DNA of 64,000 nucleotides from Gloeomargaritales cyanobacterium VI4D9 (lineage in GTDB: Bacteria > Cyanobacteriota > Cyanobacteriia > Gloeomargaritales > Gloeomargaritaceae): contig OV696605.1 of the NCBI GenBank assembly GCA_927797885.1, positions 1,525,157 to 1,589,156 of the forward strand. Reading direction: 5' to 3'. Of the stretch, positions 1,557 through 58,138 are shown piece after piece. The notes beneath the pieces were generated by a model that worked only from the letters and a program-made list of their open reading frames with translations, did no database searches and was not told the origin of the DNA. Both the position numbers and the translations under genes were made by a program. How positions within the stretch are numbered: position 1 is the stretch's first letter; the number at the start of each line of letters is the position of its first letter.

Positions 1557-1578
1557 TTGTTTACAGGAGAAATTAAAC

Positions 1579-3204: not shown

Positions 3205-4823
3205 TGCCTCGAAGACGTAACCCTCAGCAAGAATCTCAAAACACGGAGCAGTTATCGTTAGATTTTGGCTCAATTATTAAATCTGCTACAGTTTTTAGTC
3301 GTGAAGATTTGGCTAGTTACGATCCAGTGACTAGAACAATTGATATTATGAGTCGGATTGTTGATTCTGAAAGGGCTTGGAATACGACAATCGAATTAGC
3401 TCGGAATCAACTACTGGAAAAAGATCCACGAGAGCTATATTTAGAGTTTCTAACAGACCTAAAAGGTACTATTGAGCAAGACTCAACTAAAGCACCTCGA
3501 TTATCACGTCTTCTCGAACAGGTTGCTATCCGTGGTTTTGGTATGACTTATGAGCAAATACGAGTACATAATCCCCGTCAGAGAGGAACCGGATGGAGGG
3601 TTGACCCTTTCAATAAAGAATCGATTAGTGCTCATCTTGAAAAACATATTGTAGGAAAGTATTTTCTCAATTTAATTTCTGCAGATGATTCTATATGGAA
3701 TGGTGTAGTTCCCTTAATTGGATCGTCTGACGTCAGCCAACATCGAAGTGCTGTACCTATCCCTGCTCCTTTCTTTAGGCGCCGAGTTCCATTTGTACTT
3801 AATAATTCTGCCGGTACTCTTTTGAAAGTAGAACAGGGCAAACCTGAGTATGAAGCTTTGTTTGATCCTCGACCTGATGATGAGTTACTACAATGGATGT
3901 TAATAGACCCTTCCTATCAGGAAGAACTAGAACCCGAACACTATCAAAGATGCCTTGCTTCTGCAATGGATGTAGGTCAATATAAGTTTGATCACCGATA
4001 CCTTTTGAAACCCGATTCCAAACCACCAAATATCATTCTTAGAGATGGTAGTCTCTTTCCTCAAGATGCTTATTTAGATAACTTTATCCTTGCTAACAGA
4101 AGAGGAGAATTTACTCGTGAAGCAATTCGTGAACTTATAAACTGTCTCACTTCTGCCAGAGATGCTGGAATCATTTATTGCGGTGTTGCTAAAAGTGTTC
4201 AACTAAAAGTTTATAGTGCGCTAGTTGATTGGTACATAAGCAAATACATAGATAAGAGATGGGTAGCTGGGAATTACACACTAAATGACGGGCAAGCAAT
4301 GACACTACTTCTTTCTTCTCCGTCGGTTATAAGCGATAATTTGCGGGAAACAATTTGTACTTGTATGATTCGTCGCTCATTTACCACAAGAGCAAATCTA
4401 AATACAAAAGCCGATCTAAATGATTTGAATTCCTATTTCTCACACTATGAAAATTTATCTAGTTTTAATATACAACCTTTTCGTCAATTATGTGACCTTG
4501 GTCATCTTTATATGTTTTTCATGGGACACTGCAAAAGTCCAGAACTGCTTTTGCCTCGATATGATTTCTTTTACCATGACTCCCTCGGTTCACCTGAATT
4601 AATAATGAAAAAGATTTTCTACTCTCTTCAGTACTCTACTCCTGATATTGATGAAGACCATTCATTTATGATTGACAAAAAAGATGAACCAGTCATGTTT
4701 TTAATCCCCAGCGTAACACTTCAAGCACATAACTTCTCTAAGAATCTTGGAGAATTCATAACTGAGCAGACAGAAGACCGGATTATGGCTCGTTATATAT
4801 CTTATCTCTCGCAACTGACCTGA
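3204..4823 (+). CDS. NurA-like nuclease domain protein
   Basis: 539 aa. The region from about residue 165 to 345 carries NurA-type landmarks: a strand ending in GSSDVS (173-178), then LRDGSLFPQ (279-287) and the GVAKS turn (327-331), which in NurA proteins lie near metal-binding aspartates. The first ~160 residues and the C-terminal ~190 residues are unrecognised extensions. NurA is the nuclease partner of HerA; the one-base overlap with the HerA-like gene strongly suggests a stoichiometric complex. The first motif is weaker than in archaeal NurA (the aspartate sits after the GSS), so catalytic competence is uncertain. The next gene starts 10 nt downstream. Confidence 0.7.
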   Translation: MPRRRNPQQESQNTEQLSLDFGSIIKSATVFSREDLASYDPVTRTIDIMSRIVDSERAWNTTIELARNQLLEKDPRELYLEFLTDLKGTIEQDSTKAPRLSRLLEQVAIRGFGMTYEQIRVHNPRQRGTGWRVDPFNKESISAHLEKHIVGKYFLNLISADDSIWNGVVPLIGSSDVSQHRSAVPIPAPFFRRRVPFVLNNSAGTLLKVEQGKPEYEALFDPRPDDELLQWMLIDPSYQEELEPEHYQRCLASAMDVGQYKFDHRYLLKPDSKPPNIILRDGSLFPQDAYLDNFILANRRGEFTREAIRELINCLTSARDAGIIYCGVAKSVQLKVYSALVDWYISKYIDKRWVAGNYTLNDGQAMTLLLSSPSVISDNLRETICTCMIRRSFTTRANLNTKADLNDLNSYFSHYENLSSFNIQPFRQLCDLGHLYMFFMGHCKSPELLLPRYDFFYHDSLGSPELIMKKIFYSLQYSTPDIDEDHSFMIDKKDEPVMFLIPSVTLQAHNFSKNLGEFITEQTEDRIMARYISYLSQLT

Positions 4824-4833
4824 GGCAAAGCTT

Positions 4834-5880
4834 GTGCAAATAGTTGCCGGAACTACTCTGAGTTCGCTCAAGCCAGATGTTTGGAATCCCAATTCTGAGT
4901 ATTATTTGCCTACCTTGACAGCAATAATGATTTCCTATGCCGATTTTCATAAAAAGCCTGCTCTTAGACGGAAGGCAATGGATCAAGGACTCCATAACTA
5001 CTTAGGTGTTCCCAGTCACATCAAAATCTATCTGGATAATGGAGCTTTCTACTTCATTACTCATGGGGGTGAGACACCTGTGGAGGAATATACAGAGTTT
5101 GTCAAGAATGCTCAGCCTGATTGGTTTCCCATTCCTCAAGATTTTATTCCCACACCTAAAATGACCCTAGAAGAGCAACAAAAGTGTCTTGATCGCACAA
5201 TGGATATGAACATTTGTTATTCACAGGAGAACTATATACCTGTTGTGCATATCAGTCCGCTTTTAGAAGATTATCTTAGCCGCTTTAAGTCCCATAAGTC
5301 TCTTCTGGAGAAAGGAGTGATTGCATTAGGAGGAATTGTGCCTAACTTGCTTAAAGCTCCGAAAGCAATGCACCCCCAGAAAATTTTGGAGAAGCTGATA
5401 CATATACGCCAAGAATTTCGAGATAAAAAACTCCATATTTTTGGGATTGGCGGAACGATTACTCTACATATTGCGGCATTATTACGTATCAATTCGGTTG
5501 ATTCTAGTGGATGGCGCAATCGGGCTGCGCGTGGCATTGTGCAATTGCCGGGAAAAGGTGATCGTATGGTTGCTAATCTGGGAAGTTGGCGGGGTCGAAA
5601 ACCTGACGCTAAGGAGTGGGAGATGCTTGCTGAGTGCAAGTGTCCAGCCTGCCAGCGATATGGTGTTGATGGGTTGAAAGCAAATTTAGTGCATGGATTT
5701 CGTAATCGAGCCACTCATAACCTTTGGATTCTTTTAGAAGAAGTGCGTTTAATTCAAGAACATCTAGTTGCTGGCGATTATGAAAATTGGTTTCTAGATC
5801 ATCTGGACAATACACTCTATAGACCACTAATTAATAAAATTCTTGAACTAGAACAGAGTAACTATAGCAATCCTAAATGA
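4834..5880 (+). CDS. TGT/DpdA-like base-exchange enzyme
   Basis: 348 aa, tRNA-guanine transglycosylase (TIM-barrel) superfamily. Compared with the canonical Tgt at 12229-13329: LDNGAF (D68) replaces DSGGFQ; ALGGIVP and FGIGGT correspond to the IGGVSVG and MGVGT strands; VDSSGWRNRAARG (D223) aligns with the nucleophile loop [13 protein letters not shown]; and the zinc ligands are kept (C268, C270, C273 and H295 in ATHNLW). The substrate-binding residues have diverged, as in DpdA proteins that put 7-deazaguanines into DNA. I infer DNA or another nucleic acid as substrate, not the tRNA anticodon. GTG start at 4834. The last five residues (YSNPK) and the stop codon are encoded by a MITE beginning at 5863, so the native C-terminus is lost. 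Confidence 0.75.
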   Translation: MQIVAGTTLSSLKPDVWNPNSEYYLPTLTAIMISYADFHKKPALRRKAMDQGLHNYLGVPSHIKIYLDNGAFYFITHGGETPVEEYTEFVKNAQPDWFPIPQDFIPTPKMTLEEQQKCLDRTMDMNICYSQENYIPVVHISPLLEDYLSRFKSHKSLLEKGVIALGGIVPNLLKAPKAMHPQKILEKLIHIRQEFRDKKLHIFGIGGTITLHIAALLRINSVDSSGWRNRAARGIVQLPGKGDRMVANLGSWRGRKPDAKEWEMLAECKCPACQRYGVDGLKANLVHGFRNRATHNLWILLEEVRLIQEHLVAGDYENWFLDHLDNTLYRPLINKILELEQSNYSNPK

Positions 5881-11143: not shown

Positions 11144-12251
11144 CACAAGTGTTGAATCCTGCAATAAAACTTTACATATTTAGGCGTGGGACGACCCGAT
11201 TGAGCCAATGGACAAAATTCCACTCCTGCCGTATTAAGATTTGTATATATCGGAACTTATCTGCCAATTTACTTCCGTACATCCGTGGAACTTTTAACAG
11301 TTGCAATATCAAGTAAACTATTAAAATTACATAAATTTGAATGGTAATTCCATTCAAATTTTTACTCATCATTTTATCGAGCTTTAAGTTCATCTTTAGA
11401 AATTTCCATAGTACCTCTATCGCCCAGCGTTGTCTATAGGCTTCCCCTATCTCTTCATTACTCATTACATCCTCAGGAATATTGGTAGCTAAATAATAGT
11501 CTACTTTCTGTTGAACATTGCCAAAACAAACTACTCTCGCCTTACCTCGTTCTGTGGTGATATGATAGTTTTCATCCCATTTCCAATTCGACTTAATACG
11601 GATAATAAAAAGGGCATCATTTTCGATAAATTGTTCAAATACTTTGTGACTGCAAAACCCTCTATCCCCGACTGCGACTCCATTTTCCGGTAGCATTTTC
11701 ACAATATCTTCACCAAAATTAATCTCATGTGCCTGTCCAGGACTAACAATTAAATGACCAGTAGATTTCGTATCTTGATTCAAAGTGGTTATTAACTTTA
11801 CTTGGCGATAGCCTTGGAGCCAAAATAACTTACTCATCAGCGGTATTACGGTAGCATCAAAAGGACATAAAACCAACCTCTTTTCAGGATGAGCTTCCTC
11901 AATATAATGCAATAATTTATGATAAAGATGCATAAAAATTTGTGGGTCTCTTGTCTTGTTCGCCTTAGAAAACGTGGATAAGTCAACCTTAATGCCCGCA
12001 TGATTTAATTGGTAAAATAAGTCCCGTAAACTGTTGATTCCTTTGTCTAAAATGCCAGCAAACCAGATTGAACAAAATAAGCGAGAATTTAGAACTGGAT
12101 AATCATTAGTTGGCAGGTCTTTGAGTAAAAATTTGACAATCCCGGGAAAAGAATTGAATTTCATAGTTGTTTCATGTTTTGGTTTATATGAATTAGAATA
12201 CCATATTTTGACCCCTCTTTTTCTGCCTTTACCTACCTTTCAACACTTCTG
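11144..12251 (-). mobile_element. IS4-family insertion sequence, copy 1
   Basis: 1108 bp. Ends CACAAGTGTTGAA and, inverted, CAGAAGTGTTGAA. Flanked by a 9-bp direct duplication GTAACTTCT at 11135-11143 and 12252-12260. Same length and apparently same sequence as copies at 17328 and 57031. It is inserted in the last codons of tgt. Confidence 0.95.
11172..12164 (-). CDS. IS4-family DDE transposase (copy 1)
   Basis: 330 aa, intact. N-terminal helical DNA-binding part, then FDATVIPL (first catalytic Asp), VGDRGFCS (second Asp) and the IS4 signature Y-x2-R-x3-E-x6-K in YRQRWAIEVLWKFLKMNLK. The 9-bp target duplication fits the IS4 family. The reading frame is the same in all three copies, so the element was probably active recently. 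Confidence 0.95.
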   Translation of the reverse strand: MKFNSFPGIVKFLLKDLPTNDYPVLNSRLFCSIWFAGILDKGINSLRDLFYQLNHAGIKVDLSTFSKANKTRDPQIFMHLYHKLLHYIEEAHPEKRLVLCPFDATVIPLMSKLFWLQGYRQVKLITTLNQDTKSTGHLIVSPGQAHEINFGEDIVKMLPENGVAVGDRGFCSHKVFEQFIENDALFIIRIKSNWKWDENYHITTERGKARVVCFGNVQQKVDYYLATNIPEDVMSNEEIGEAYRQRWAIEVLWKFLKMNLKLDKMMSKNLNGITIQIYVILIVYLILQLLKVPRMYGSKLADKFRYIQILIRQEWNFVHWLNRVVPRLNM

Positions 12252-17327: not shown

Positions 17328-18435
17328 CACAAGTGTTGAATCCTGCAATAAAACTTTACATATTTAGGCGTGGGACGACCCGATTGAGCCAATGGACAAA
17401 ATTCCACTCCTGCCGTATTAAGATTTGTATATATCGGAACTTATCTGCCAATTTACTTCCGTACATCCGTGGAACTTTTAACAGTTGCAATATCAAGTAA
17501 ACTATTAAAATTACATAAATTTGAATGGTAATTCCATTCAAATTTTTACTCATCATTTTATCGAGCTTTAAGTTCATCTTTAGAAATTTCCATAGTACCT
17601 CTATCGCCCAGCGTTGTCTATAGGCTTCCCCTATCTCTTCATTACTCATTACATCCTCAGGAATATTGGTAGCTAAATAATAGTCTACTTTCTGTTGAAC
17701 ATTGCCAAAACAAACTACTCTCGCCTTACCTCGTTCTGTGGTGATATGATAGTTTTCATCCCATTTCCAATTCGACTTAATACGGATAATAAAAAGGGCA
17801 TCATTTTCGATAAATTGTTCAAATACTTTGTGACTGCAAAACCCTCTATCCCCGACTGCGACTCCATTTTCCGGTAGCATTTTCACAATATCTTCACCAA
17901 AATTAATCTCATGTGCCTGTCCAGGACTAACAATTAAATGACCAGTAGATTTCGTATCTTGATTCAAAGTGGTTATTAACTTTACTTGGCGATAGCCTTG
18001 GAGCCAAAATAACTTACTCATCAGCGGTATTACGGTAGCATCAAAAGGACATAAAACCAACCTCTTTTCAGGATGAGCTTCCTCAATATAATGCAATAAT
18101 TTATGATAAAGATGCATAAAAATTTGTGGGTCTCTTGTCTTGTTCGCCTTAGAAAACGTGGATAAGTCAACCTTAATGCCCGCATGATTTAATTGGTAAA
18201 ATAAGTCCCGTAAACTGTTGATTCCTTTGTCTAAAATGCCAGCAAACCAGATTGAACAAAATAAGCGAGAATTTAGAACTGGATAATCATTAGTTGGCAG
18301 GTCTTTGAGTAAAAATTTGACAATCCCGGGAAAAGAATTGAATTTCATAGTTGTTTCATGTTTTGGTTTATATGAATTAGAATACCATATTTTGACCCCT
18401 CTTTTTCTGCCTTTACCTACCTTTCAACACTTCTG
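17328..18435 (-). mobile_element. IS4-family insertion sequence, copy 2
   Basis: 1108 bp with the same ends as copy 1. Target duplication GGTTCAACT at 17319-17327 and 18436-18444. Inserted in a MITE-like repeat. Confidence 0.95.
17356..18348 (-). CDS. IS4-family DDE transposase (copy 2)
   Basis: 330 aa, same predicted protein as copies 1 and 3, with FDATVIPL, VGDRGFCS and the Y-x2-R-x3-E-x6-K signature. Intact. Confidence 0.95.
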   Translation of the reverse strand: MKFNSFPGIVKFLLKDLPTNDYPVLNSRLFCSIWFAGILDKGINSLRDLFYQLNHAGIKVDLSTFSKANKTRDPQIFMHLYHKLLHYIEEAHPEKRLVLCPFDATVIPLMSKLFWLQGYRQVKLITTLNQDTKSTGHLIVSPGQAHEINFGEDIVKMLPENGVAVGDRGFCSHKVFEQFIENDALFIIRIKSNWKWDENYHITTERGKARVVCFGNVQQKVDYYLATNIPEDVMSNEEIGEAYRQRWAIEVLWKFLKMNLKLDKMMSKNLNGITIQIYVILIVYLILQLLKVPRMYGSKLADKFRYIQILIRQEWNFVHWLNRVVPRLNM

Positions 18436-24878: not shown

Positions 24879-24888
24879 TTGAGATTGT

Positions 24889-25045
24889 TGTACAGTCTCA
24901 AATTATTTGACATTATCTCAAATTAACTGTCACCGGAAGTAACGTTCCTAAAATGCAACGTCCATCGGGGATAGAGGGCTTTGGGTATTCTGTTTTGGAA
25001 TACTCTCCCCCTCATCAACAATCTCAAATTAGCTGACATATTCGG
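24889..25045 (+). mobile_element. CAST left end (LE) with transposase-binding repeats
   Basis: Starts TGTACA, followed by short repeats (TCTCAAATTA three times, at about 24896, 24917 and 25022), the pattern of type V-K CAST ends where TnsB binds. tnsB begins downstream, as expected for the left end. Confidence 0.75.
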
Positions 25046-25100
25046 AGGTCATCTCACTTTGGATGTCACAATCCTTGTCCTTGGTTCGCTATAATAGCGT

Positions 25101-26766
25101 ATGTGTTCTATAGAGTTATATGGGCGATACTTCAAACCCACAAGCTATAGTCATTTCAAACAAGTTTGCAACATCCGCCTTCACCTACAAACCCTCTCCT
25201 GGAAAGGAATAGAGCGATTGCCAATACCTAAAAAGTGTCGCATTCTAAAACGGAATGACCATAATCAAGACCTTCTCGATGCCCTCTTGCCCCTGATGGA
25301 GCCGTGTGACAAGGTGACCTACGGACAAAGGCTTCGGGAGACAGCCGAGCGGTTGGGGAAGTCGGTCAGGACGGTTCAACGCTGGATGCAACGCTGGCAA
25401 AACGACGGTCTTGATGGGTTTGTATCAACACAACGTGCGGATAAAGGTCAATTTCGCCTCACCAAGGATTGGCAGGATTTCATCCTCAAGACGTTTCAGC
25501 AGGGGAATCGGGGGACACCCCAGCAAGGTGCAAGTCAAACTCATGGCTCAGCAAGCGCAACTGAAACCCCCAAGCCGAGCCTCGGTCTATCGCTTCCTGG
25601 CTCCTGTATGTGAAGCAAAAAAGGTAAAAAATTCCATTTCCCCGGGTGGCGAGGGGAGCGACTGGCTCTCAAAACCAGGGATGGCAAAGAATTACGAATT
25701 GAGTACAGTAACCAAGTCTGGCGACCATACCCAGGTGGATGTTTTACTGGTTGATAACGATGGCAGGTTGCTTGGTCGCCCTTGGTTGACCACCATCATT
25801 GACAGTTATTCCCGGTGCATCATGGGGTTTCACCTTGGATTTGATGCGCCTAGCTCGACGGTTGTGGCACTGGCTCTACGCCACGCAATTTTGCCAAAGA
25901 ACTATGGGAAGGAGTATGGACTTCATTGTGAGTGGGGCACCTTTGGCATCCCTCAATATCTCTACACCGACGGGGGCAAAGACTTTCGCTCCCAGCACCT
26001 TGAACACATCGGGGTACAACTTGGATTCACCTGTCATTTACGCCGACAACCCTCGGATGGGGGACTGGTGGAACGACCGTTCAAGACCTTGAATACGCAA
26101 CTTTTTTCTACTTTGCCTGGATACACCGGTTCTCATGTGCAGGAGCGTCCCAAAGAAGCAGAGAAGGAGGCTACTTTGACGCTCACCGATTTGGAACGGT
26201 TGTTGGTGGGGTATGTGGTGGACAACTACAACCAATCCCTGGATGCGCGCATGGGTGACCAAACCCGCTACCAGCGGTGGGAGTCGGGGTTACCTGCATT
26301 GCCGGATTTACCGACCGAGCGGGAGCTAGATGTGTGTTTGATGAAGTCCACCCAGCGGCGGGTACAGCGAGGGGGTTGTATCCAGTTCGAGAATTTCATT
26401 TACAAGGGGGAACGCTTGAGCGGTTATGAAGGGACGCAAGTGAGTCTACGGTACAATCCGACCGACATCACCACGGTTTGGGTGTACCGTCTGGAGCAGG
26501 GGAAGGAAGTCTTTGTGACCCAAGCCCATGCCCAAGGGTTGGAGGGAGCGAAAATATCCCTCTACGAGGCGAAAGCGGCACAGCAACGACTGAGGGAACA
26601 ACAAAAGAGCTTAAGTAATGCGGCTATTTTGGCAGAAGTGGAGCGTCGTCAACAGGAAGTGACGAACACAAAAAAGGCACGGCGTAAGCAAGCCCAGGCG
26701 GATATTGGGGGTACATGGGATGAGCCTCAACCCACCATTACAGCCGATGAATTAAACCCAGCTTAA
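25101..26766 (+). pseudogene. tnsB: TnsB transposase of type V-K CAST (frameshifted)
   Basis: The N-terminal part (to about 25515) has the winged-helix/HTH segments YGQRLRETAERLGKSVRTVQ; the C-terminal part has the DDE core: GDHTQVDVLLVD, LYTDGGKDF and GLVERPFKT, followed by a beta-barrel and a basic, Ala/Gln-rich C-terminal tail. The two parts are in different frames. Removing one G from the run at about 25511-25515 restores RGHPSKVQVKL and one protein of roughly 550 aa, close to the ~580 aa of V-K TnsB. This is either a simple frameshift, an error in the homopolymer, or less likely programmed slippage. tnsC and tniQ, which should follow, are absent. Confidence 0.85.
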
Positions 26767-26823
26767 GAGAAACTTTGATGCAGAGAAATAAGCCACAGCC
26801 CGCATCAAAATACTAAGGGTGTT

Positions 26824-29397
26824 TTATGCACTGTGTTCCCGTGCTACTACAGTGTCGTACAGCCCGTAGTAAGCTAGTCCTTTATGACTTTCAATACCGG
26901 TGTAGCGCAGGGATGCGTCTTCATAACGCCGGAATGCAAATACCGCTTGGTTCATCTGCTCGGTATTGAATACTTTCAGTTGCACAAGTAAATGAAAATC
27001 TTGGACTGTCAGACCAGTTATAGTGAGGAATAGACCTGGTTCGAGCCTAGTGATGACATCCTGTAATGTGTTCTCACGAAAGTCAGTTAGGTACATAAAC
27101 GGGGGGATGCGGGTGGCAAACTTGATGAGTTTCTCTTGAATCTGCTTGCGCTTGGACTTATATTCTTTCTCTTCCTCTGTTAGCTCTATTTTTTCCTGTT
27201 GCGATAATTCCCCACTTTTCGCCTTCTTTTTCAACTCTTTGATTGTCTCACTCTTATTGATAATGGTTTCAATGACGTTATCCCCCAGGCTCCGCCACCC
27301 CTCAATACGTTCTACTGCCGCCAGTGCCTCTGGGTTATCAAGGATGCGGCGCAGGGTATCATTATCCACATTCACCAAAAGGGCACTCTCCCACTTGCGT
27401 GCCAATAGGGTTCCTGAGGTACCCGCCATCGCAATGTCAAGGATGCCACCAGCGTCAATCTGCGTCATCTTTGCCCCATCATAGGCAAGGACGGGAAGGA
27501 AGGACACCAGCTCTTTGACCGCATTTTCTGGGTTTGGTTCGTTGGGGGCTAAGCCGATTGCATATTCGGAAATCTGCCGCAACGCACGGGTGGGGGCAAA
27601 GTCGAACACAAAACAGGCGGGCTTTAGTATCTCTTCTCTGTTGGGATCATCGCCCTCAGGATTTGGGATTACCCAAGGGGACTGCACACGAAAAGCGGCT
27701 TGAAAGTATGTTTCGGGGGACTGTAAATTGCGTAACATAAGAATTGCCGACCACTGTTTTACCGTGATGCCTGTGGTTAGTTTGCCGCAGGAAAGGGTGA
27801 TGGTTTTAGTGTCAAACCCACTACCAATTGCCTGCCGTACTGGTGGTAAAGCTGACAATCCAATCCCTGCCGATGCCCCCGCCGCTACGACCACTTTGTA
27901 GTCATGCCAGAAGGTATTTTGCCGCTCAGCCAGCAGGTTAGCCATTGCATGACAGGATGCTACATTCGGGAGAAACCAAAATGAGTGCTGTAGATAGGGC
28001 AGTAGTCGCACATCCGAGTAGGGAAATGGTGGGCGAGTGCCGACTTTCAAGTGTTCAGTAGTTTGTGGGAAATACTGACCACGGATGATTTCAAGCCACT
28101 TTTGCACTTCATCTTTGTGTTTGAACTGGGCACTATCCCCTGTACCAGTAGCACTGAAAAACTCGTTCAGGTCAAACTCGTCAAACTCCCCTGCACTGGC
28201 AACCATCAGGAGTTCATCGGGCATCTGGTAGGTGAGTAGCCGCATCTCTGGGAGTGCCGCATAGGGGTTGGGCTGGTCGGGATGCGCTTGGGCAAAGGCT
28301 TGCTTAGCCCGTTGTTCATCCGTGTATGTCCAGTTAAAGATTTGTTCCTCGATGAACTCGCCCGTCGCCAATGCACGAAATGGTGTCCCAGACAGGTAGA
28401 GATAAGCACGGGTTGTAATAGGAAGAAAATCCGACTCCTCCTCGCCCAGTTCCTTAAGCTCTTCCTCAAAATCGACAAGGCTCGCCTGATTAGTCCGACG
28501 GTTGGCAAGAGAAGTGCCATATTCTGCATTAAGCTCGGCAGTGGTGTTTTCCTCGCCCTCAAATAATTCTTTAGCCGTGTCGCGCCAAGCCCCAAAATGA
28601 TACTCATCAAAGATAACTAAATCCCAGTTGATGGTATGGATCCACTCGTTTTTTGGTTTGATGTTGCCTGTTTCATCTCGCCCCAACAGGTCTTGAAATG
28701 AGCCGAAATAGACCAACGGGTGGGTAGGATCGGCGTTACTTGGATTGCCATCTGAATTGCGTGAAAAGAACTGCCAGCCGTCAAAATCTACATGGTTTTC
28801 AAGGTCGTTTTGCCAGGCATCCTCTACAGCAGGTTTGAAGGTAACAATGAGTACCCGCCGCACTTTGAGTTTTTTGGCGAGTTGGTAGGCGGCAAATGTT
28901 TTACCGAAACGCATCTTAGCATTCCATAGAAAGCGGGGGGTGGCATTGGGGTTTTCTGCCCAAATGGATTGGTAGTAGTTGTGGGTTTTTTCTACTGCCT
29001 CCGCTTGCTCACGACGCATCTTAAAGGTGGCATGGTGGGTGCCGGAAAACCGTTGCCCCGTACGCAATTCCGTCAGTACCGTTTTCACGTCGGCAACTGT
29101 ACAGCGCATCCATTCCTGCTCTACCCGCTCAAACCCCTTGCGCTCTAATGCCGCACGCACCTCAAAGTCGGTAAACAGGCTACCATCTTCCCGTTCGGCG
29201 GGTTCGTCCAGTTCGATGCGGTAGTTTTTGATAGCGGCGGTCTTGAGTTGCTCTGCCACACGCTGTTTGACCTCACGGGTGGTCTGACCAACCTTAAGTA
29301 GTCCCCGATGCGCTTCATCATCAATGGCGTAGGCGTAGATGCGTAGCCGTGCGGTAGGTTTGGTGCTAAGGATTTCTTCGATGGGCTTAGTTATCAT
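26824..29397 (-). CDS. Restriction protein: GIY-YIG-like nuclease plus DEAD-type helicase
   Basis: 857 aa. Residues ~18-110 resemble a T5orf172/GIY-YIG-like nuclease domain (RIYAYAID, LLKVGQTTREVKQRV). A superfamily 2 helicase follows: AKMRFGKT (160-167), DEYH (264-267), LSGTPFR, and later conserved SF2 motifs (CGKLTTGITVKQW, QAAFRVQSPW). The C-terminal ~250 residues are helical. This is the restriction/translocase component of a plasmid- and island-borne R-M system whose two methylase genes lie just upstream in the same operon (11-bp overlap). Inside the CAST boundaries, so probably cargo. Confidence 0.85.
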   Translation of the reverse strand: MITKPIEEILSTKPTARLRIYAYAIDDEAHRGLLKVGQTTREVKQRVAEQLKTAAIKNYRIELDEPAEREDGSLFTDFEVRAALERKGFERVEQEWMRCTVADVKTVLTELRTGQRFSGTHHATFKMRREQAEAVEKTHNYYQSIWAENPNATPRFLWNAKMRFGKTFAAYQLAKKLKVRRVLIVTFKPAVEDAWQNDLENHVDFDGWQFFSRNSDGNPSNADPTHPLVYFGSFQDLLGRDETGNIKPKNEWIHTINWDLVIFDEYHFGAWRDTAKELFEGEENTTAELNAEYGTSLANRRTNQASLVDFEEELKELGEEESDFLPITTRAYLYLSGTPFRALATGEFIEEQIFNWTYTDEQRAKQAFAQAHPDQPNPYAALPEMRLLTYQMPDELLMVASAGEFDEFDLNEFFSATGTGDSAQFKHKDEVQKWLEIIRGQYFPQTTEHLKVGTRPPFPYSDVRLLPYLQHSFWFLPNVASCHAMANLLAERQNTFWHDYKVVVAAGASAGIGLSALPPVRQAIGSGFDTKTITLSCGKLTTGITVKQWSAILMLRNLQSPETYFQAAFRVQSPWVIPNPEGDDPNREEILKPACFVFDFAPTRALRQISEYAIGLAPNEPNPENAVKELVSFLPVLAYDGAKMTQIDAGGILDIAMAGTSGTLLARKWESALLVNVDNDTLRRILDNPEALAAVERIEGWRSLGDNVIETIINKSETIKELKKKAKSGELSQQEKIELTEEEKEYKSKRKQIQEKLIKFATRIPPFMYLTDFRENTLQDVITRLEPGLFLTITGLTVQDFHLLVQLKVFNTEQMNQAVFAFRRYEDASLRYTGIESHKGLAYYGLYDTVVAREHSA

Positions 29398-30976
29398 TTC
29401 CTTCGCTGTTAAGTTCCATCGGGCGAATCACTGACTCGATGTAGTCAATTTCCTCCTGCGTCAGTCCATATTTTTGGTAAAGCTCAGCATCAGTCCAAAT
29501 GCGATCCCAAGTCTGCATGGGAACCCATAAGTAGGTTGAATGTGTCGCATGCTGAGTAATCTTGCGAAGAGATACAAGAAAGCGGAAAAAGCGAGTTCTT
29601 AAGTACGATTCTAGGCTTTGAGCTTCCTCCTTTGTTTTCAAAAAGAAAAATAAGAAAGACTGGGTGCAAACAGAGGGCGGAGCGACAATCATTGGTTTAC
29701 CTAGCACTATGTCAGGAATCTTCTGTCCACCATCTGATCCAGCTTCTGGTACAAGTACCTTCCATGTGTTAATCAAGTGTGCACTCTTTTTGACCTCACT
29801 ACGAGCGATGTACCCTACCCTACGTTTGCCAGAACAAATGTAATTAAGGGGAACATCCCCAGGTTGTTCTCTGGCATGGAAACCTTTAAAGTTCGATGTC
29901 CAGCCAAATTCTTTGTCCCGAGCCAAAATGGTATTGACAGACGGCTCTCTGTGAGTAAGGACTTTACGCAGAATTTCCACTGCCTGTGAATCACGGACGA
30001 AAATATCAAACTCGCCAAGATTACGCCAATAAGGTCCGATTACCTCTTTGTTACGAATTGTCTGTACCTGGCAATCCCTGTCGTATGAAGCATCCCAAAG
30101 AAAGTAGCAAATGCCCCCTTTTACTTCGACTCCAGGGAAAACTTCTTTCGAGTTGGGGAAGTCCACTAATGCACGAATTCGTCGATCATTAAGTATGGTT
30201 TGGCGGAATTTGCTTAGACCTAGTCCTGTTGCCATCCAACGTGATGGGATCACCATAATCAAATACCGAGGGTCTAGCTTTTTGGCTTGCTCGACAAAAT
30301 GATGATAAATTGGAATGTCGCGAGTGCCACCATCACTAGGTAACTGATACGGCGGGTTACCAATAATCACATCAAACTGCATAGCTTCTCCAAACATCTG
30401 GGCGATTCTTGCTTTGATATTATCGGTGTGAATAAATGGATAGGCGTAATTTTCTCGATCTTCTCCCCGATCCAACTCACTCCGGGGCGCACCGCAGTAA
30501 CGACATTTATTCCCCTCCCAAGTGTGCTGTACCCGTTCAAACCAGATGTTGCCGTCATCCGTCTGAAACTCCTTGCAGATTGAATGCGGTCCCATAGCGT
30601 GCTTACTACAATACACCGTCCGCCGTGCCATCAACGCCGTTAGCCTTGTAATGCCAATGCCAAACACCTGCCTGGTCAAAATATGATTCACCCGTGCTTG
30701 TAGGTCGGGAATTTGCTCCTTTAGTCCTGCCACGAGCCGCCGGGTGATTTCCCGTAGAAACACGCCCGACTTGGTGCAGGGGTCAAGGAAGCGTACCTCT
30801 GAGTTTGCCCATAGGTTGGCTCCATCGTGCTCCTGTGCCCATGCCTCGGTCAGGGTATCCAGCATACGGTTCGCAAATTCCGGCGGGGTAAACACCTCAT
30901 CACTAGATAAATTGGCGATGCAGGTCAGTACATCAGGATTACGCCCACGCAAGGTAAAGGGTGCCTGTGCAGTCAT
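29387..30976 (-). CDS. DNA N6-adenine methylase, Eco57I-like, NPPY-containing
   Basis: 529 aa. Divergent motif I FLDPCTKSGVFL, motif IV IIGNPPYQL (NPPY 207-210), and a probable zinc ribbon (YCSKH at 122-126 and CRYC at 158-161). The C-terminal half resembles target-recognition regions of type I/Eco57I methylases. The start overlaps the upstream methylase stop as ATGA, so coupled translation is likely. Expected to modify adenine and protect the host DNA from the helicase-nuclease. Complete by length. Confidence 0.88.
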   Translation of the reverse strand: MTAQAPFTLRGRNPDVLTCIANLSSDEVFTPPEFANRMLDTLTEAWAQEHDGANLWANSEVRFLDPCTKSGVFLREITRRLVAGLKEQIPDLQARVNHILTRQVFGIGITRLTALMARRTVYCSKHAMGPHSICKEFQTDDGNIWFERVQHTWEGNKCRYCGAPRSELDRGEDRENYAYPFIHTDNIKARIAQMFGEAMQFDVIIGNPPYQLPSDGGTRDIPIYHHFVEQAKKLDPRYLIMVIPSRWMATGLGLSKFRQTILNDRRIRALVDFPNSKEVFPGVEVKGGICYFLWDASYDRDCQVQTIRNKEVIGPYWRNLGEFDIFVRDSQAVEILRKVLTHREPSVNTILARDKEFGWTSNFKGFHAREQPGDVPLNYICSGKRRVGYIARSEVKKSAHLINTWKVLVPEAGSDGGQKIPDIVLGKPMIVAPPSVCTQSFLFFFLKTKEEAQSLESYLRTRFFRFLVSLRKITQHATHSTYLWVPMQTWDRIWTDAELYQKYGLTQEEIDYIESVIRPMELNSEGNDN

Positions 30977-31632
30977 GGTAGTAGCTCCAGTTGCGTATAG
31001 CCCATCTCTGCCCTAGCCAACTCCCTGACCGTCATTGGCGAGTAGGTCTTAACCGGCGTAAAAACCTCATGCTTATTAAGGGGTGAAAACGCACTGAATG
31101 TGGAAGACATAGCAAGTGTATCAAGACGGAAATCACGCCGCTGAAACTTACCCTTACCTAGATAGCCCCATTCAGCAAAGGTAATGGGTTGACCGTCGTG
31201 CGTACACATGGTGAGCGCATCCCCATGCACTAGGTTTTGAGACAAAACATAATCTGCCGCCAGGTAGAACTGATCCGATTCTCCTACTCCCAGATACTCC
31301 GCAAAAATTTCGAGTAGGTTCGCCTTACACTCGGCGATGTTATCAGCTAATAGCTCGATACCGTAAATGCACATCAACCCCAGCAGTGCATAGTGCCGCT
31401 TCTCAAAGTCAGACCGTCCATACTTTATCTCTACAGCGGCGAGTTTACGGCGTAGGATTTGCACAAGGAAGTTACCACTCCCACAGGCTGGTTCTAGGAA
31501 GCGGGAATCAATGCGTTCGGTTTCGTCTTTTACCAAATCAAGCATTGCCTCTACCAACCAAGGCGGGGTGAATACCTCTCCATGATCGGCGACACGCTGT
31601 TTGGACTTGACGTAGCTATTGATTTGTTGCAT
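30973..31632 (-). CDS. Small DNA N6-methylase subunit
   Basis: About 219 aa from ATG 31632 (MQQINSYVKSKQRVADHGEV). Motif I FLEPACGSGNFL and flanking helices are present, and the sequence ends shortly after AEWGYLGKGKFQRRDF without an NPPY motif. Such short SAM-binding proteins regularly precede the NPPY-bearing methylase of this R-M type, and the two probably act together. An earlier in-frame ATG (31725) would overlap the upstream gene; the chosen start begins just before the conserved KSKQRVADHGEVFTP block. Confidence 0.75.
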   Translation of the reverse strand: MQQINSYVKSKQRVADHGEVFTPPWLVEAMLDLVKDETERIDSRFLEPACGSGNFLVQILRRKLAAVEIKYGRSDFEKRHYALLGLMCIYGIELLADNIAECKANLLEIFAEYLGVGESDQFYLAADYVLSQNLVHGDALTMCTHDGQPITFAEWGYLGKGKFQRRDFRLDTLAMSSTFSAFSPLNKHEVFTPVKTYSPMTVRELARAEMGYTQLELLP

Positions 31633-31684
31633 ATTTGCGACAACTTTTTTACATTCCCTGGAGTTAGTATAACCTTGAAACTGC

Positions 31685-32506
31685 TCAATCAAAGGTTTGG
31701 AAAGACCATCTCTCCCAAAGTTCATGAGGGGTGGGAAAATCATCTCTTTCTGTGGTGATATGACTACTAAAATCGTATTCAACAATGCCAATGCCATTGG
31801 TGGAATAAGCAAATTGTAGCCCTAACATCTCAGCATAATTTTTCGCTTGCTTCAGCCCATCATCCGCATCCATATAAACCGCTTTAGCCTCGACTAAAGC
31901 AATAGCTCCATGATGACCGTAGTTCAGAATATAATCAGCTTTAGCTCTATTCTTGCGCCTTGAACGGCTATTTACAGCCATGTTATTCTTTGCCGCAACT
32001 TCCCCCTCAACCGTAATCGAGTGTGGACTTTGACCCCAACCCGCTGCCATCAGTTTTGCCATGACCAATTCCCCAACAGATTGCGGATTTTCGATGGTTC
32101 TTTGAATGTTTTCTTGTAGGACATCTATCGGTATAACCGTCATACTAAAAACCCCTTGCCTCACCACAGCCACTACTTTCTGAGGGTCAAATTCCTCAAT
32201 TATTAACCGTTGGTTGTCATCATCCCACCGCCACAGAAACCGCCGGGCTTGTTCCGGCTGGGCATACCCCGCATCCAGCTTTTTTAGATGCCCTAAACAC
32301 GCCCCTATCGCCGCCAAATCATATCCCCGTTGCAACAGATAATGCACGATGGCTAGGTTCACCAAATTCTCCCGGTCGTAATACGCACTGTAACCCGTAC
32401 CTGCCGGATTCACCACCGGGACGACCAACCCCTTACTGCGCCAGTATTGCAGTTGCCGGATAGTACAGCCCGTGATGCGCGCCGCCTCCTTCGTGCTGAA
32501 AAACAT
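31685..32506 (-). CDS. CvkR-like MerR regulator fused to HsdR N-terminal nuclease-like domain
   Basis: About 273 aa from ATG 32506. The first ~75 residues are a MerR winged helix (FFSTKEAARITGCTIRQLQY, W/GLVVPVVNPAGTGYSAYY) like CvkR, the repressor of cas12k found divergent to cas12k in V-K CASTs. From about residue 130 the sequence becomes a type I restriction R-subunit N-terminal (PD-(D/E)XK) domain: VGELVMAKLMAAGW, ADYIL (D194), LVEAKA (E209, K211), QAKNYAEMLGLQFAYSTNG and a final FPTPHELWERW. The catalytic D/E-x-K set is present, but the helicase part that normally follows is absent. One uninterrupted frame; a natural fusion or a recombination product. Likely still binds the cas12k promoter 100 bp away. 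Confidence 0.78.
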   Translation of the reverse strand: MFFSTKEAARITGCTIRQLQYWRSKGLVVPVVNPAGTGYSAYYDRENLVNLAIVHYLLQRGYDLAAIGACLGHLKKLDAGYAQPEQARRFLWRWDDDNQRLIIEEFDPQKVVAVVRQGVFSMTVIPIDVLQENIQRTIENPQSVGELVMAKLMAAGWGQSPHSITVEGEVAAKNNMAVNSRSRRKNRAKADYILNYGHHGAIALVEAKAVYMDADDGLKQAKNYAEMLGLQFAYSTNGIGIVEYDFSSHITTERDDFPTPHELWERWSFQTFD

Positions 32507-32557
32507 CGTTCCCAAGTATTGATTGGCTTTATCGTACCCTGAAGTGCTTTCAATGGC

Positions 32558-32613
32558 TAGACAACTTTTAATACAGATATGCTATTATTAAATTATCAAC
32601 CTCTTATGGATAT
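32558..32613 (+). promoter_or_regulatory. Probable cas12k promoter and CvkR operator region
   Basis: AT-rich 98-bp divergent spacer between the MerR fusion and cas12k. A TAGACA at 32558 and TATTAT at 32583 are possible but poorly spaced -35/-10 elements. In studied V-K CASTs CvkR represses cas12k from this position; the exact operator cannot be defined here. Confidence 0.4.
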
Positions 32614-34419
32614 ATGACTAAGTTAACGATTCAGTGCCGTCTGGTTGCTGAAGAGGAAACCCGCCGCTGGGTGTGGGAGATGATGGCGGGTCGTTATGCG
32701 CCGCTGATTGCCACCACCTTGGGACAAGTTTCCCAACACAAGGATTTTCCGCAATGGGTAGCTACTGGGGAACTGCCCGCCCAGGTGGTCAAAAATTTAG
32801 TGAACCAGGCGAAAAGCGGTCTGCCTGCTCGCTGGTGTGCCTCCGCCCAACGACAGGTGCAGGAAACCTACAAGGCTTGGTTGAAAAGACGGCGGAAATT
32901 ACAGCAAAAGTTACAGGCTCAGCAAACCTGGTTGAGTGTCCTCAGACCGGATGCAGAATTGGCTCAAGATGCGGGTTTATCCCTGGAGGAAATGAAAATT
33001 CGGGCACAAGCACTTCTCCATAGGGAGATCAATAATTGGTTTCAGGCGTACCAACAATGTCAGGATGTCGTTGAGCGGTCTATCTTTGCCTACTTGCTGA
33101 AACACCGTTTGACTGTGCCCACGGAGCCGGAAGATACGGACAAACTCAGGCGGAAACGGCGGCAAGTGGAAATTAAAATTGAGCGGCTAGAAACGCAGCT
33201 TGCGGGTCGTAGTCCTCAAGGTCGGGATTTGACGGGCAATCGGTATGCAACCGCATTGCACGAAGGGGAACAGTGTTATTGGGAAGATGACGCTGATTTT
33301 CTGGCATGGCAGGCGGAAATCCTGTCTCGCCCTGACTCCCTGCCGCCCCCGGTGGAATATGCCACCAACACAGACATGACCTGGCACAAGGATGAACAGG
33401 GGCGTTTGGCGGTCACCTTCAACGGACTGGGCAAGCTGAAATTCAAAATTGCCTGCGACCAACGGCAACTGCATTGGTTTCAGCGGTTTTACCAAGACCA
33501 AGAGCAGTTCAAAGCTCAGAAAGGGCAACGCAGTCAGGCATTGTTTACCTTGCGTTCTGTGGAATTACTTTGGAAGCCGGGGAACTGCTCAGGAGAGCCT
33601 TGGCAGGCTAATTTTTTGTACCTTCACTGCACGGTTGATTCCCGCCTTTGGACACAGGAAGGAACGGCTATGGTTCAACAAGAAAAAGCAAAGAAATCGC
33701 AAAGGATTGTTGAGAAGTTATCAGAGCGAAGTGATTTAACCGCCCAACAAAAAGAGTGTTTGCAACGTCATCAGTCCACCTTAGTTCGGTTACAAATGGG
33801 GTATGACCGCCCCCAACGGCGAATGTATCAGGGCAAGAGTCACCTTGCTGTGGGCATCAGTCTGGACATGGAGAACCTGGTGACCGTGGCACTGGTGGAT
33901 GTCGTGAAACAAAAAGTGATTACAGGTTGCACAATGAAGAGCCTACTTGGTCAAGATTATGCCTTGGTTCAGCGTCTCAGGTATGAAAAAAGGCAAAATT
34001 CCCACCTGCGAAAAGTCGCCCAGGAACGAGGGAGTAAAATCGTTAATTATGAAGCGAATTTAGGCATTCATGTCGAGCGGTTGCTTGTGAAGGCGATTAT
34101 TCATTTTGCCCAGCAACATCTGGCGGGGAGCCTATGTGTGCCGACATTGAAAGATATACGGGAAACCATCCAATCTCATCTCCAATGCCGGGCAGAGGAG
34201 CGTCATCCCAATAGCAAAGAACTCCAACACAGATACGCCAAAGAATATCGTATCAATGCCCATCGTTGGAGTTATAATAGGTTATTGAAATTACTTAATC
34301 AGCAAGCCAAGATTGCTGGTTTAGTAGTAGAGCAGGGGGTGCAAAGTGCGGGTGAAACTGCTTTAGAAAGAGCGTTAGGGGTCGCCTTAAGTGCTTATTA
34401 TCAACGCAGTGCCGCTTGA
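32614..34419 (+). CDS. cas12k: Cas12k, nuclease-dead effector of type V-K CAST
   Basis: 601 aa. Matches the Cas12k pattern throughout: TIQCRLVAEEETRRWVWEMM at the start, SIFAYLLKHR, KRRRQVEIKIERLE, RQLHWFQRFYQDQ, LFTLRS, QSTLVRLQMGYDRP, YQGKSHLAVGISLDMEN (degenerate RuvC-I), AKEYRINAHRWSY and LALSAYYQR-like end. About 40 residues shorter than the Scytonema hofmannii protein, mainly for lack of a Lys/Ser-rich insertion. Cas12k binds crRNA-tracrRNA and directs TnsC/TniQ/TnsB insertion beside the target without cutting. It looks intact, but its partners tnsC and tniQ are missing in the window. Confidence 0.95.
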   Translation: MTKLTIQCRLVAEEETRRWVWEMMAGRYAPLIATTLGQVSQHKDFPQWVATGELPAQVVKNLVNQAKSGLPARWCASAQRQVQETYKAWLKRRRKLQQKLQAQQTWLSVLRPDAELAQDAGLSLEEMKIRAQALLHREINNWFQAYQQCQDVVERSIFAYLLKHRLTVPTEPEDTDKLRRKRRQVEIKIERLETQLAGRSPQGRDLTGNRYATALHEGEQCYWEDDADFLAWQAEILSRPDSLPPPVEYATNTDMTWHKDEQGRLAVTFNGLGKLKFKIACDQRQLHWFQRFYQDQEQFKAQKGQRSQALFTLRSVELLWKPGNCSGEPWQANFLYLHCTVDSRLWTQEGTAMVQQEKAKKSQRIVEKLSERSDLTAQQKECLQRHQSTLVRLQMGYDRPQRRMYQGKSHLAVGISLDMENLVTVALVDVVKQKVITGCTMKSLLGQDYALVQRLRYEKRQNSHLRKVAQERGSKIVNYEANLGIHVERLLVKAIIHFAQQHLAGSLCVPTLKDIRETIQSHLQCRAEERHPNSKELQHRYAKEYRINAHRWSYNRLLKLLNQQAKIAGLVVEQGVQSAGETALERALGVALSAYYQRSAA

Positions 34420-34502
34420 GATTTACACCCGTCCCGATAGCAAAGCGTGGCGTAGCCATTAGCGGAGTGTGGCGTTAGCTGTACCTTGACAACTTAATAG
34501 TG
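34420..34502 (+). other. Spacer with short dispersed repeats and possible tracrRNA promoter
   Basis: Two copies of a GCGTGGCGTAGCC-type repeat (34436-34480) are followed by TTGACA at 34486, a possible -35 box for the tracrRNA. Confidence 0.4.
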
Positions 34503-34751
34503 AAAATAGCGCCGCAGTTTAAGCTCAGTAAGCCTCTGGACTGCGAAAAGTATGGGGTAGTTTGACCGTCGGTAAACGGTTGTGCTTTCTGCCCCTGGCG
34601 ACTGTCCACCCCGATAGCGTAGCGTGGCGTTAGCCATTGCTGTCGATTTCTTAACTGGGAATCGAGATGAGGTGCGCCCCCAGCAAAAGGGAACGGGTTT
34701 ACTGGAGTGGTGGTCGCCGAATCACCCCCGAGCAAGGGGGACTCGTCCTTT
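34503..34751 (+). ncRNA. tracrRNA of the type V-K system
   Basis: Contains the conserved V-K tracrRNA blocks in order: AATAGCGCCGCAG, AGCCTCTG, GGTAGTTTGAC with a hairpin, GCTTTCTGCCCCTGG, GGTGCGCCCCCAGCAA, TGAATCACC-like GAATCACCCCCGAG and CAAGGGGGACT. Compared with the known Scytonema arrangement, it has an extra ~22 nt piece at about 34615-34637 (AGCGTAGCGTGGCGTTAGCC) identical in type to the short palindromic repeats scattered in the window. Ends approximate. Confidence 0.85.
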
Positions 34752-34946
34752 GCAGTTTGGCAAACCTCTAGTGTGGTTCTATCGCCTGGGGGTTTGCCAA
34801 ATCCTGCAAACTGAATAGGGGCGGTACTTTTGAGCCGGAGGTCTTTTGACCAAAGGGCTAAAACCGTCCCTCACAGGGGAAGGCTACATGACCTTTGCCA
34901 AAACTGGAACTGGAGCAACGTGATGACCGGAGTTTCAGGGGGTAGA

Positions 34947-35205
34947 GTTGCATCCGCCTTCCAACCACAAGGGCGGGTGAAAGTGATCTTCGAAAATCAC
35001 AGGAGGAAAACTCTGCCTATGTTGCATCCGCCTTCCAACCACAAGGGCGGGTGAAAGGCGACAAATTCCGAGCCTGCGTTGGGTGCATTGTTAGTTGCAT
35101 CCGCTTTTCAGCAACTAGGGCGGGTGAAAGGGGGATTTTTGCGCCACCGATTGCAGGCGGGATGTCAAGTTGCATCCGCCTTCCAACCACAAGGGCGGGT
35201 GAGAG
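34947..35205 (+). CRISPR. Short CRISPR array for Cas12k (four repeats, three spacers)
   Basis: 37-nt repeats at 34947-34983, 35021-35057, 35094-35130 and 35169-35205. Consensus begins GTTGCATCCGCCTTCCAACC and ends AAGGGCGGGTGAAAG. Spacers are 37, 36 and 38 nt. The third repeat is diverged in the middle (CTTTTCAGCAACTAGGG) and the fourth ends GAGAG instead of GAAAG. No cas1/cas2 nearby. Confidence 0.92.
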
Positions 35206-35320
35206 GCGATATGCTATCCTTTAGGACTGCGTGGCGTAGTAATGCCATGACCAATTCCGGTATGTCTGCCTTCCCACAGCTAAGTCAGGAATGTTTCTTG
35301 TGGATGAGGACAAAGAGGGT
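35206..35320. other. Region between array and right end
   Basis: Includes a GCGTGGCGTAGTAATGCC repeat. This is where V-K elements usually keep a delocalised homing spacer; none with a convincing match to the adjacent tRNA was found by eye. Confidence 0.35.
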
Positions 35321-35370
35321 GTATGACGACACTAATTTGGCACTGGCGGCAAATAATTTGGCACTGTACA
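35321..35370 (-). mobile_element. CAST right end (RE)
   Basis: Read from the outside on the minus strand it begins TGTACAGTGCCAAATTATTT and continues with a second AGTGCCAAATTAGTGTCGTC. This has the TGTACA terminus and short repeats of V-K elements. It lies 12 bp from the 3' end of tRNA-Ile(CAU), the usual type of attachment site. Confidence 0.8.
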
Positions 35371-35382
35371 ACAGTACAACAA

Positions 35383-35454
35383 TGCACGAGGAGGGAATTG
35401 AACCCACATACCGGCGATTATGAGTCGCTTGCCTTACCAGTCGGCCACTCGTGC
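35383..35454 (-). tRNA. trnI: tRNA-Ile(CAU), lysidine type (CAST attachment site)
   Basis: 72 nt without CCA. Acceptor GCACGAG/CTCGTGC, D-arm GCC/GGC, anticodon loop CTCATAA (CAU), T-loop TTCAATT. The overall pattern (CTCATAA loop, TTCAATT) fits the tRNA-Ile2 of cyanobacteria and plastids rather than elongator tRNA-Met. Two mismatches are seen (first anticodon-stem pair, one T-stem pair), so the fold is slightly weak. A CAU tRNA-Ile needs TilS modification. Confidence 0.75.
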
Positions 35455-35491
35455 AGGCTGATACAATGGCACCAGTTATCCTAACAAAATC

Positions 35492-57030: not shown

Positions 57031-58138
57031 CACAAGTGTTGAATCCTGCAATAAAACTTTACATATTTAGGCGTGGGACGACCCGATTGAGCCAATGGAC
57101 AAAATTCCACTCCTGCCGTATTAAGATTTGTATATATCGGAACTTATCTGCCAATTTACTTCCGTACATCCGTGGAACTTTTAACAGTTGCAATATCAAG
57201 TAAACTATTAAAATTACATAAATTTGAATGGTAATTCCATTCAAATTTTTACTCATCATTTTATCGAGCTTTAAGTTCATCTTTAGAAATTTCCATAGTA
57301 CCTCTATCGCCCAGCGTTGTCTATAGGCTTCCCCTATCTCTTCATTACTCATTACATCCTCAGGAATATTGGTAGCTAAATAATAGTCTACTTTCTGTTG
57401 AACATTGCCAAAACAAACTACTCTCGCCTTACCTCGTTCTGTGGTGATATGATAGTTTTCATCCCATTTCCAATTCGACTTAATACGGATAATAAAAAGG
57501 GCATCATTTTCGATAAATTGTTCAAATACTTTGTGACTGCAAAACCCTCTATCCCCGACTGCGACTCCATTTTCCGGTAGCATTTTCACAATATCTTCAC
57601 CAAAATTAATCTCATGTGCCTGTCCAGGACTAACAATTAAATGACCAGTAGATTTCGTATCTTGATTCAAAGTGGTTATTAACTTTACTTGGCGATAGCC
57701 TTGGAGCCAAAATAACTTACTCATCAGCGGTATTACGGTAGCATCAAAAGGACATAAAACCAACCTCTTTTCAGGATGAGCTTCCTCAATATAATGCAAT
57801 AATTTATGATAAAGATGCATAAAAATTTGTGGGTCTCTTGTCTTGTTCGCCTTAGAAAACGTGGATAAGTCAACCTTAATGCCCGCATGATTTAATTGGT
57901 AAAATAAGTCCCGTAAACTGTTGATTCCTTTGTCTAAAATGCCAGCAAACCAGATTGAACAAAATAAGCGAGAATTTAGAACTGGATAATCATTAGTTGG
58001 CAGGTCTTTGAGTAAAAATTTGACAATCCCGGGAAAAGAATTGAATTTCATAGTTGTTTCATGTTTTGGTTTATATGAATTAGAATACCATATTTTGACC
58101 CCTCTTTTTCTGCCTTTACCTACCTTTCAACACTTCTG
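57031..58138 (-). mobile_element. IS4-family insertion sequence, copy 3
   Basis: 1108 bp, same ends as copies 1 and 2. Target duplication CAAGAAATC at 57022-57030 and 58139-58147. Interrupts the HXXEE gene. Confidence 0.95.
57059..58051 (-). CDS. IS4-family DDE transposase (copy 3)
   Basis: 330 aa with the same predicted sequence as copies 1 and 2 and the full set of catalytic motifs. Intact. Confidence 0.95.
   Translation of the reverse strand: MKFNSFPGIVKFLLKDLPTNDYPVLNSRLFCSIWFAGILDKGINSLRDLFYQLNHAGIKVDLSTFSKANKTRDPQIFMHLYHKLLHYIEEAHPEKRLVLCPFDATVIPLMSKLFWLQGYRQVKLITTLNQDTKSTGHLIVSPGQAHEINFGEDIVKMLPENGVAVGDRGFCSHKVFEQFIENDALFIIRIKSNWKWDENYHITTERGKARVVCFGNVQQKVDYYLATNIPEDVMSNEEIGEAYRQRWAIEVLWKFLKMNLKLDKMMSKNLNGITIQIYVILIVYLILQLLKVPRMYGSKLADKFRYIQILIRQEWNFVHWLNRVVPRLNM

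Follow-up and report, generated by a model that had tools for sequence, protein, structure and literature searches.

A CvkR-type MerR protein fused to an HsdR N-terminal nuclease domain in a defective type V-K CAST of a Gloeomargaritales cyanobacterium

The promoters Pcas12k and PtnsB of type V-K CASTs, elements that lack tnsA, are both bound by bona fide CvkR, and an R42E change in CvkR abolishes binding. Ziemann et al. (2023; PMC9938897), who selected CvkR proteins at a BLASTP E value of 1e-20, mention in one sentence four fusions of CvkR to an hsdR-restriction domain; that paper describes these fusions no further and states that it found no evidence for a mechanistic link by which R-M and CAST would cooperate. 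The general CvkR–HsdR architecture is therefore already reported there, and the proposal of the initial annotation that it is novel was abandoned. Transcriptional regulator and restriction nuclease are also combined in one polypeptide in the C-REase fusions, such as CR.NsoJS138I, for which both regulator and nuclease activities have been shown (PMC3850674).

Here, we describe such a fusion in a 64,000-nucleotide stretch (hereafter, the window) of contig OV696605.1 from Gloeomargaritales cyanobacterium VI4D9; computation gave its domain composition and folds, its recurrence and conservation, and candidate operators. Like Alr3614 (CvkR of Anabaena sp. PCC 7120; 7xn2), the protein has a MerR winged helix and the CvkR fold, and its gene diverges from cas12k. 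It is a distant relative of Alr3614 (phmmer E 5.5e-17; two further fusions that were tested scored 1e-24 and 1e-32) and may fall below the 1e-20 limit given by Ziemann et al., although the databases differ and the E values are not directly comparable. It further differs from Alr3614 in carrying Y in place of R42, in the replacement of the canonical operator, and in its EcoAI-type nuclease without a helicase. In CR.NsoJS138I, by contrast, the regulator is a C protein with an unrelated HTH that controls its own type II R-M genes, whereas the window regulator is that of a transposon; an entire PvuII-like enzyme makes up its nuclease part, rather than an HsdR N-terminal domain. With the EcoAI/FtnUII-type HsdR (3h1t) and EcoR124I HsdR, the window protein shares the N-terminal PD-(D/E)XK domain, the D/E/K residues and QxxxY; it lacks their motor and helical domain, and a MerR domain precedes the nuclease. 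New in this work are a route of fusion followed by truncation, repeated helicase loss at one boundary, a signature of purifying selection on the nuclease half, retention of D/E/K by each of the ten fusions, and a diverged putative operator common to the cas12k and tnsB promoters, together with altered DNA-contact residues.

Domain structure and genomic setting

The fusion frame is open without interruption and would cover 31685–32515 (−; 276 aa) if the TTG at 32515 were used; the ATG at 32506 is the likely start because homologues begin with MFFTS (Table 1). Pfam placed MerR_1 at residues 6–71 (E 1.7e-16) and returned a sub-threshold HSDR_N_2 match (E 2.8e-4, 21.4 bits vs. a curated cutoff of 25), and the NCBIfam profile of the EcoAI/FtnUII HsdR N-terminus matched residues 149–271 (E 2.7e-28). 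The nearest solved structures by sequence (phmmer) were 3h1t (HsdR; E 1.2e-19, residues 147–266), followed by 7xn2 (residues 2–127). An AlphaFold2 model, with 47 window and locus sequences as input, had a mean pLDDT of 91.2 and a pTM of 0.81. On this predicted model, VIA-align superposed 7xn2 on residues 1–143 (Z 18.4 over 142 residues) and 3h1t on residues 142–273 (Z 21.8), indicating that both halves are complete folds; the type IIG enzymes BpuSI, BsaXI and DrdV were also among the fold matches. No helicase remnant was detected by tblastn 3' of the fusion, where the ORF stops at the domain boundary. Since the SF2 helicase/translocase domains are absent, the protein is not an HsdR subunit. 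Thus, the sequence profiles and the fold matches agree with the initial annotation, which had read one uninterrupted frame as a MerR/CvkR-like regulator joined to an HsdR N-terminal domain without the helicase, and the structure prediction that it had proposed gave two confidently folded halves.

Table 1. Features of the fusion locus and the surrounding CAST in the window
Feature	Coordinates	Strand	Description and basis
Defective type V-K CAST, approximate extent	24888..35370		Ends TGTACAGT...ACTGTACA, read by eye
Putative second operator ACACATACGCTATTATA	25090..25106	−	At the tnsB promoter; differs from the cas12k site at 3 positions
tnsB, frameshifted	25101..26766	+	Followed by neither tnsC nor tniQ
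R-M-like cargo operon 3' of the fusion	26824..31812	−	N6-MTase-like protein, Eco57I-type MTase, T5orf172 (GIY-YIG)+ResIII protein; not type I
CvkR–HSDR_N fusion gene	31685..32506	−	273 aa from the ATG at 32506
Non-homologous tail of the fusion	31685..31709	−	DNA homology to two sister loci stops at 31709 (blastn)
HsdR N-terminal PD-(D/E)XK nuclease domain, residues 142–273	31688..32083	−	EcoAI/FtnUII type; NCBIfam, 3h1t
Catalytic residues D191, E206, K208	31883..31936	−	Motif ADYILNYGHHGAIALVEAK at 190–208; invariant in alignment A1
CvkR-type MerR repressor part, residues 1–143	32078..32506	−	Winged helix-turn-helix and dimerisation/C-terminal part; phmmer, VIA-align to 7xn2
Putative diverged CvkR operator ACAGATATGCTATTATT	32573..32589	+	Upstream of cas12k; identical in CAST#2
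cas12k, 601 aa	32614..34419	+	Divergent from the fusion; NCBIfam NF038191, E 7e-202
CRISPR array	34946..35206	+	Four repeats, period about 73; tandem repeats, sequence, matches to L031

Homology to Alr3614 extends over the winged helix-turn-helix and the dimerisation domain, and the gene lies immediately upstream of cas12k and points the opposite way, as the initial annotation had placed it and as expected of a CvkR. An hsdM and hsdS operon was not found beside the fusion in the window, its neighbours being Eco57I-type MTases and the GIY-YIG/ResIII protein. The adjacent operon, which is on the same strand, was indeed R-M-like, as had been claimed, but it is not a type I system and did not supply the HSDR_N domain. 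Two loci with related fusions, a second CAST in the same genome (CAST#2) and a congener (G085), carry different cargo behind their fusions, and the window operon is absent from both; it is therefore exchangeable cargo, and an origin of the nuclease domain from it was rejected. The operon itself encodes two MTase proteins, one without an obvious NPPY motif, and its ResIII protein and Eco57I-type MTase match different parts of the single type IIG profile PDLC03626, which suggests a split type IIG/ISP-like enzyme. The CAST#2 cargo (L102 11971–19341) includes a type I R-M system that is complete and has an MNT/HEPN toxin–antitoxin pair between hsdS and hsdR.

The CAST ends were assigned by inference from known V-K ends, and the element adjoins tRNA-Met (35382–35455). 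Because tnsC and tniQ are missing and tnsB is frameshifted, the window CAST is defective and not autonomous; in this genome, tnsC and tniQ were found in CAST#2 only. CAST#2 also encodes a fusion 82% identical and a Cas12k 96% identical to those of the window, and its tnsB is interrupted. An intact tnsB is thus present in neither element (L102 8315–10211 and L031 for CAST#2), and cas12k is intact in both with a dN/dS of 0.14; therefore, Cas12k may persist without transposition. Synonymous divergence between window 31685–34419 and L031 8956–11690 was uneven (about 0.5 in the fusion gene and 0.17 in cas12k, falling to 0.05 at the cas12k 3' end), which suggests that gene conversion has occurred between the two copies.

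Two features elsewhere in the window were also recorded. A 1.1-kb insertion sequence encoding a 330-aa transposase is present in three identical copies (11144–12251, 17328–18435 and 57031–58138), with another copy in L031, and is recently active. Positions 804–5880 hold a cluster of DUF6884, a HerA helicase, an unknown 539-aa protein and a TGT-like protein (Pfam), which may serve in 7-deazaguanine-related DNA modification or defence.

Recurrence of CvkR–HsdR fusions and loss of the motor

Related loci were collected from a sample of 386 cyanobacterial genomes, from a second, partly overlapping class-level sample of 389, and from GTDB contigs. Three states were found. In 11 loci, cvkR is followed directly by a separate hsdR at a distance of −11 to +126 bp. 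In loci of four other genomes (L034, L035, L036 [= L050] and L037), a full-length CvkR–HsdR protein of 1018–1044 aa with motor motifs is followed by hsdM and hsdS; the fusion of L034 has no adjacent cas12k. Like the window protein, these carry an N-terminal CvkR on an HsdR with an intact nuclease motif; unlike it, they keep the motor (TGTGKT, DECH), sit in a complete type I operon and belong to another HsdR subfamily. The third state is the truncated CvkR–HSDR_N form, which is of EcoAI type in the window, CAST#2 and G085 (the window trio) and was also found in Chamaesiphon (L044; 292 aa) and Synechocystis salina (L039/L091; 299 aa, from a different HsdR subfamily). The search for further MerR–HSDR_N proteins near cas12k that the initial annotation recommended was thus successful. 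In addition, a 642-aa fusion (L033 7972–9900) has a degenerate Walker A motif (ATESGTT) and DECE for DECH, with the nuclease D/E/K intact; judging from these motifs, it lost the motor by a second path that likewise spared the nuclease motif. No record in the plasmid collection covered 80% of the window protein, the matches being to the HsdR N-domain only, and IMG/VR gave partial matches to one half of it only.

These states point to what we consider the probable history: a CvkR-type V-K CAST repressor fused with the hsdR of type I restriction cargo directly downstream, and the resulting CvkR–HsdR protein later lost its motor and kept the nuclease domain. The fusion route is visible because hsdR lies directly 3' of unfused cvkR in the 11 loci of the first state. 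All truncated fusions end at residues 287–292 of the 1037-aa full-length form. Three independent end points this close would be improbable (a rough estimate of about 3e-4 if random over about 900 positions), and end points at a domain boundary could also be favoured by folding stability alone. Unfused truncated hsdR genes stop at scattered points (187, 288 and 459 aa).

A tree of the CvkR domain, built by a quick method without bootstrap, placed the S. salina truncated form as sister to a full-length fusion (98, starred) and the Chamaesiphon form inside the full-length clade (87), with the window trio apart (100, starred). On this tree, the truncated state needs three changes, at least two of them forced by starred branches. 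Since the nuclease domain was kept and the motor lost in separate lineages, the fusion is probably not mere debris. In G085 and S. salina, cas12k is cut to 204 aa and 78 aa, respectively, beside an intact fusion frame; a broken cas12k beside two of the five truncated fusions counts against the preferred explanation.

Conservation of the nuclease half and operator candidates

The catalytic residues D191, E206 and K208 correspond to D194, E209 and K211 in the numbering of the 276-aa frame, under which the initial annotation had listed them, and they are intact. D/E/K was retained in 10 of 10 fusions. Q220xxxY224 is present in the window protein and is replaced by QxxxC in the CAST#2 fusion. Within the window trio, the dN/dS of the nuclease half was 0.14, 0.15 and 0.19 (Fisher p 1e-11, 2e-12 and 8e-7), compared with 0.03–0.09 for the winged helix-turn-helix and 0.27–0.56 for the MerR C-terminal part and linker. 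These codon-level estimates indicate purifying selection on the nuclease half. The S. salina protein and the full-length fusion of G076 were 73% identical in the nuclease half, 75% in the CvkR half and 50% in the linker. DNA homology among the trio ends where the nuclease domain ends, with unrelated DNA beyond that point in each (blastn), indicating either one old truncation with later cargo swaps at its edge or a repeated identical cut. If the copies were cut separately, part of the selection signal would be older than the loss of the motor; the purifying selection may thus partly predate truncation, which counts against the preferred explanation.

The window has no canonical CvkR box AnnACATnATGTnnT, which is widely conserved in cas12k promoters without being a defining trait of the family; the best match in the window had 4 mismatches, the box was rejected as the operator, and its absence also counts against the preferred explanation. 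Before cas12k, the published box is exact in L035 and L036, has one mismatch in L037, L044 and L091, and is absent in the window trio. The candidate site ACAGATATGCTATTATT has the same sequence in G085 and in the two CAST copies and lies within a stretch more conserved than coding sequence. At no more than 3 mismatches, it has one further site in the 64 kb, at the tnsB promoter (0.09 expected per window) and roughly 200 bp from the CAST left end. The consensus of the putative sites matches nothing else in the 3.16-Mb genome, a result that is circular for its own source sites. No site matching the putative operator at ≤3 mismatches was found at the tnsB of CAST#2, again counting against the preferred explanation.

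Of the DNA-contact residues of CvkR, which do not define the family, R20 and Q23 are kept as R17 and Q20 in the phmmer alignment to 7xn2, and K40 and R42 are replaced by T37 and Y39. The two replacements count against the preferred explanation, and altered contact residues together with an altered operator are consistent with a diverged yet working repressor.

Possible roles of the fusion

Taken together, the window protein is most likely a working CAST repressor with a conserved, folded and probably catalytically competent nuclease domain. The MerR half would dimerise and bind the diverged operator of the shared promoter region between the divergent cas12k and cvkR genes and its counterpart in the tnsB promoter, thereby repressing cas12k, tnsB and probably its own gene. 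The nuclease half would be a selectively maintained PD-(D/E)XK domain held as a dimer at the promoter. Without an ATP motor, any nuclease activity would probably be low or conditional, and the domain may act as a regulated nuclease or have a sensing or oligomerisation role.

It is possible, and in our judgement unlikely, that the repressor works alone and the nuclease is an idle passenger, kept since cutting a folded domain would destabilise the repressor. The shared end points at the domain boundary are also expected from folding stability, the second copy has lost the Y of QxxxY, and neither motor, HsdM nor HsdS is fused to activate the nuclease. However, the low dN/dS extends over the whole nuclease domain while linkers of the same protein are looser, the D/E/K residues are intact throughout, and truncated hsdR genes outside fusions have no common end point. 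An improbable alternative is that the MerR dimer sets two nuclease domains on CAST operators and conditionally nicks or cuts transposon DNA, for copy limitation, for cointegrate resolution or as a stand-in for the missing TnsA. Such steering of a related motorless nuclease domain by another DNA-binding module occurs in BpuSI, BsaXI and DrdV, and the absence of tnsA from V-K CASTs also speaks for it. The putative operators, however, are at promoters, that of tnsB some 200 bp from the left end; constant cutting of a chromosomal site would be toxic; and HsdR nuclease domains are not known to be active in isolation.

We also regard it as very improbable that the domain lends its nuclease in trans to the R-M operon directly behind it or to the CAST#2 type I system. 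The operon shares its strand, and CAST#2 offers hsdM, hsdS and hsdR, but the operon has its own GIY-YIG/ResIII protein and is missing from the sister CASTs, and the CAST#2 HsdR is already complete with its own HSDR_N. A one-off recombination scar or assembly artefact is barely credible and was rejected: the tail after 31709 does consist of non-homologous cargo DNA, but three related copies and two further lineages share the architecture with intact frames. The initial annotation had held that a scar would be indicated by the lack of any other example together with loss of a catalytic residue; nine further fusions were found, all with D/E/K.

A broader and rather doubtful proposal is that the repressor of CASTs has become a DNA-targeted nuclease more than once, in which a MerR dimer represses and also nicks or cuts at or near transposon promoters; in full-length fusions, the restriction subunit would itself be the transposon repressor, one protein controlling both restriction and transposition. 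CvkR has had no known effector, and the recurrent fusion and motor loss make the link between CAST and restriction testable in a 273-aa protein. The window fusion would be a natural example of a MerR-guided PD-(D/E)XK domain, and its diverged pair of CvkR and putative operator would be useful for CAST control.
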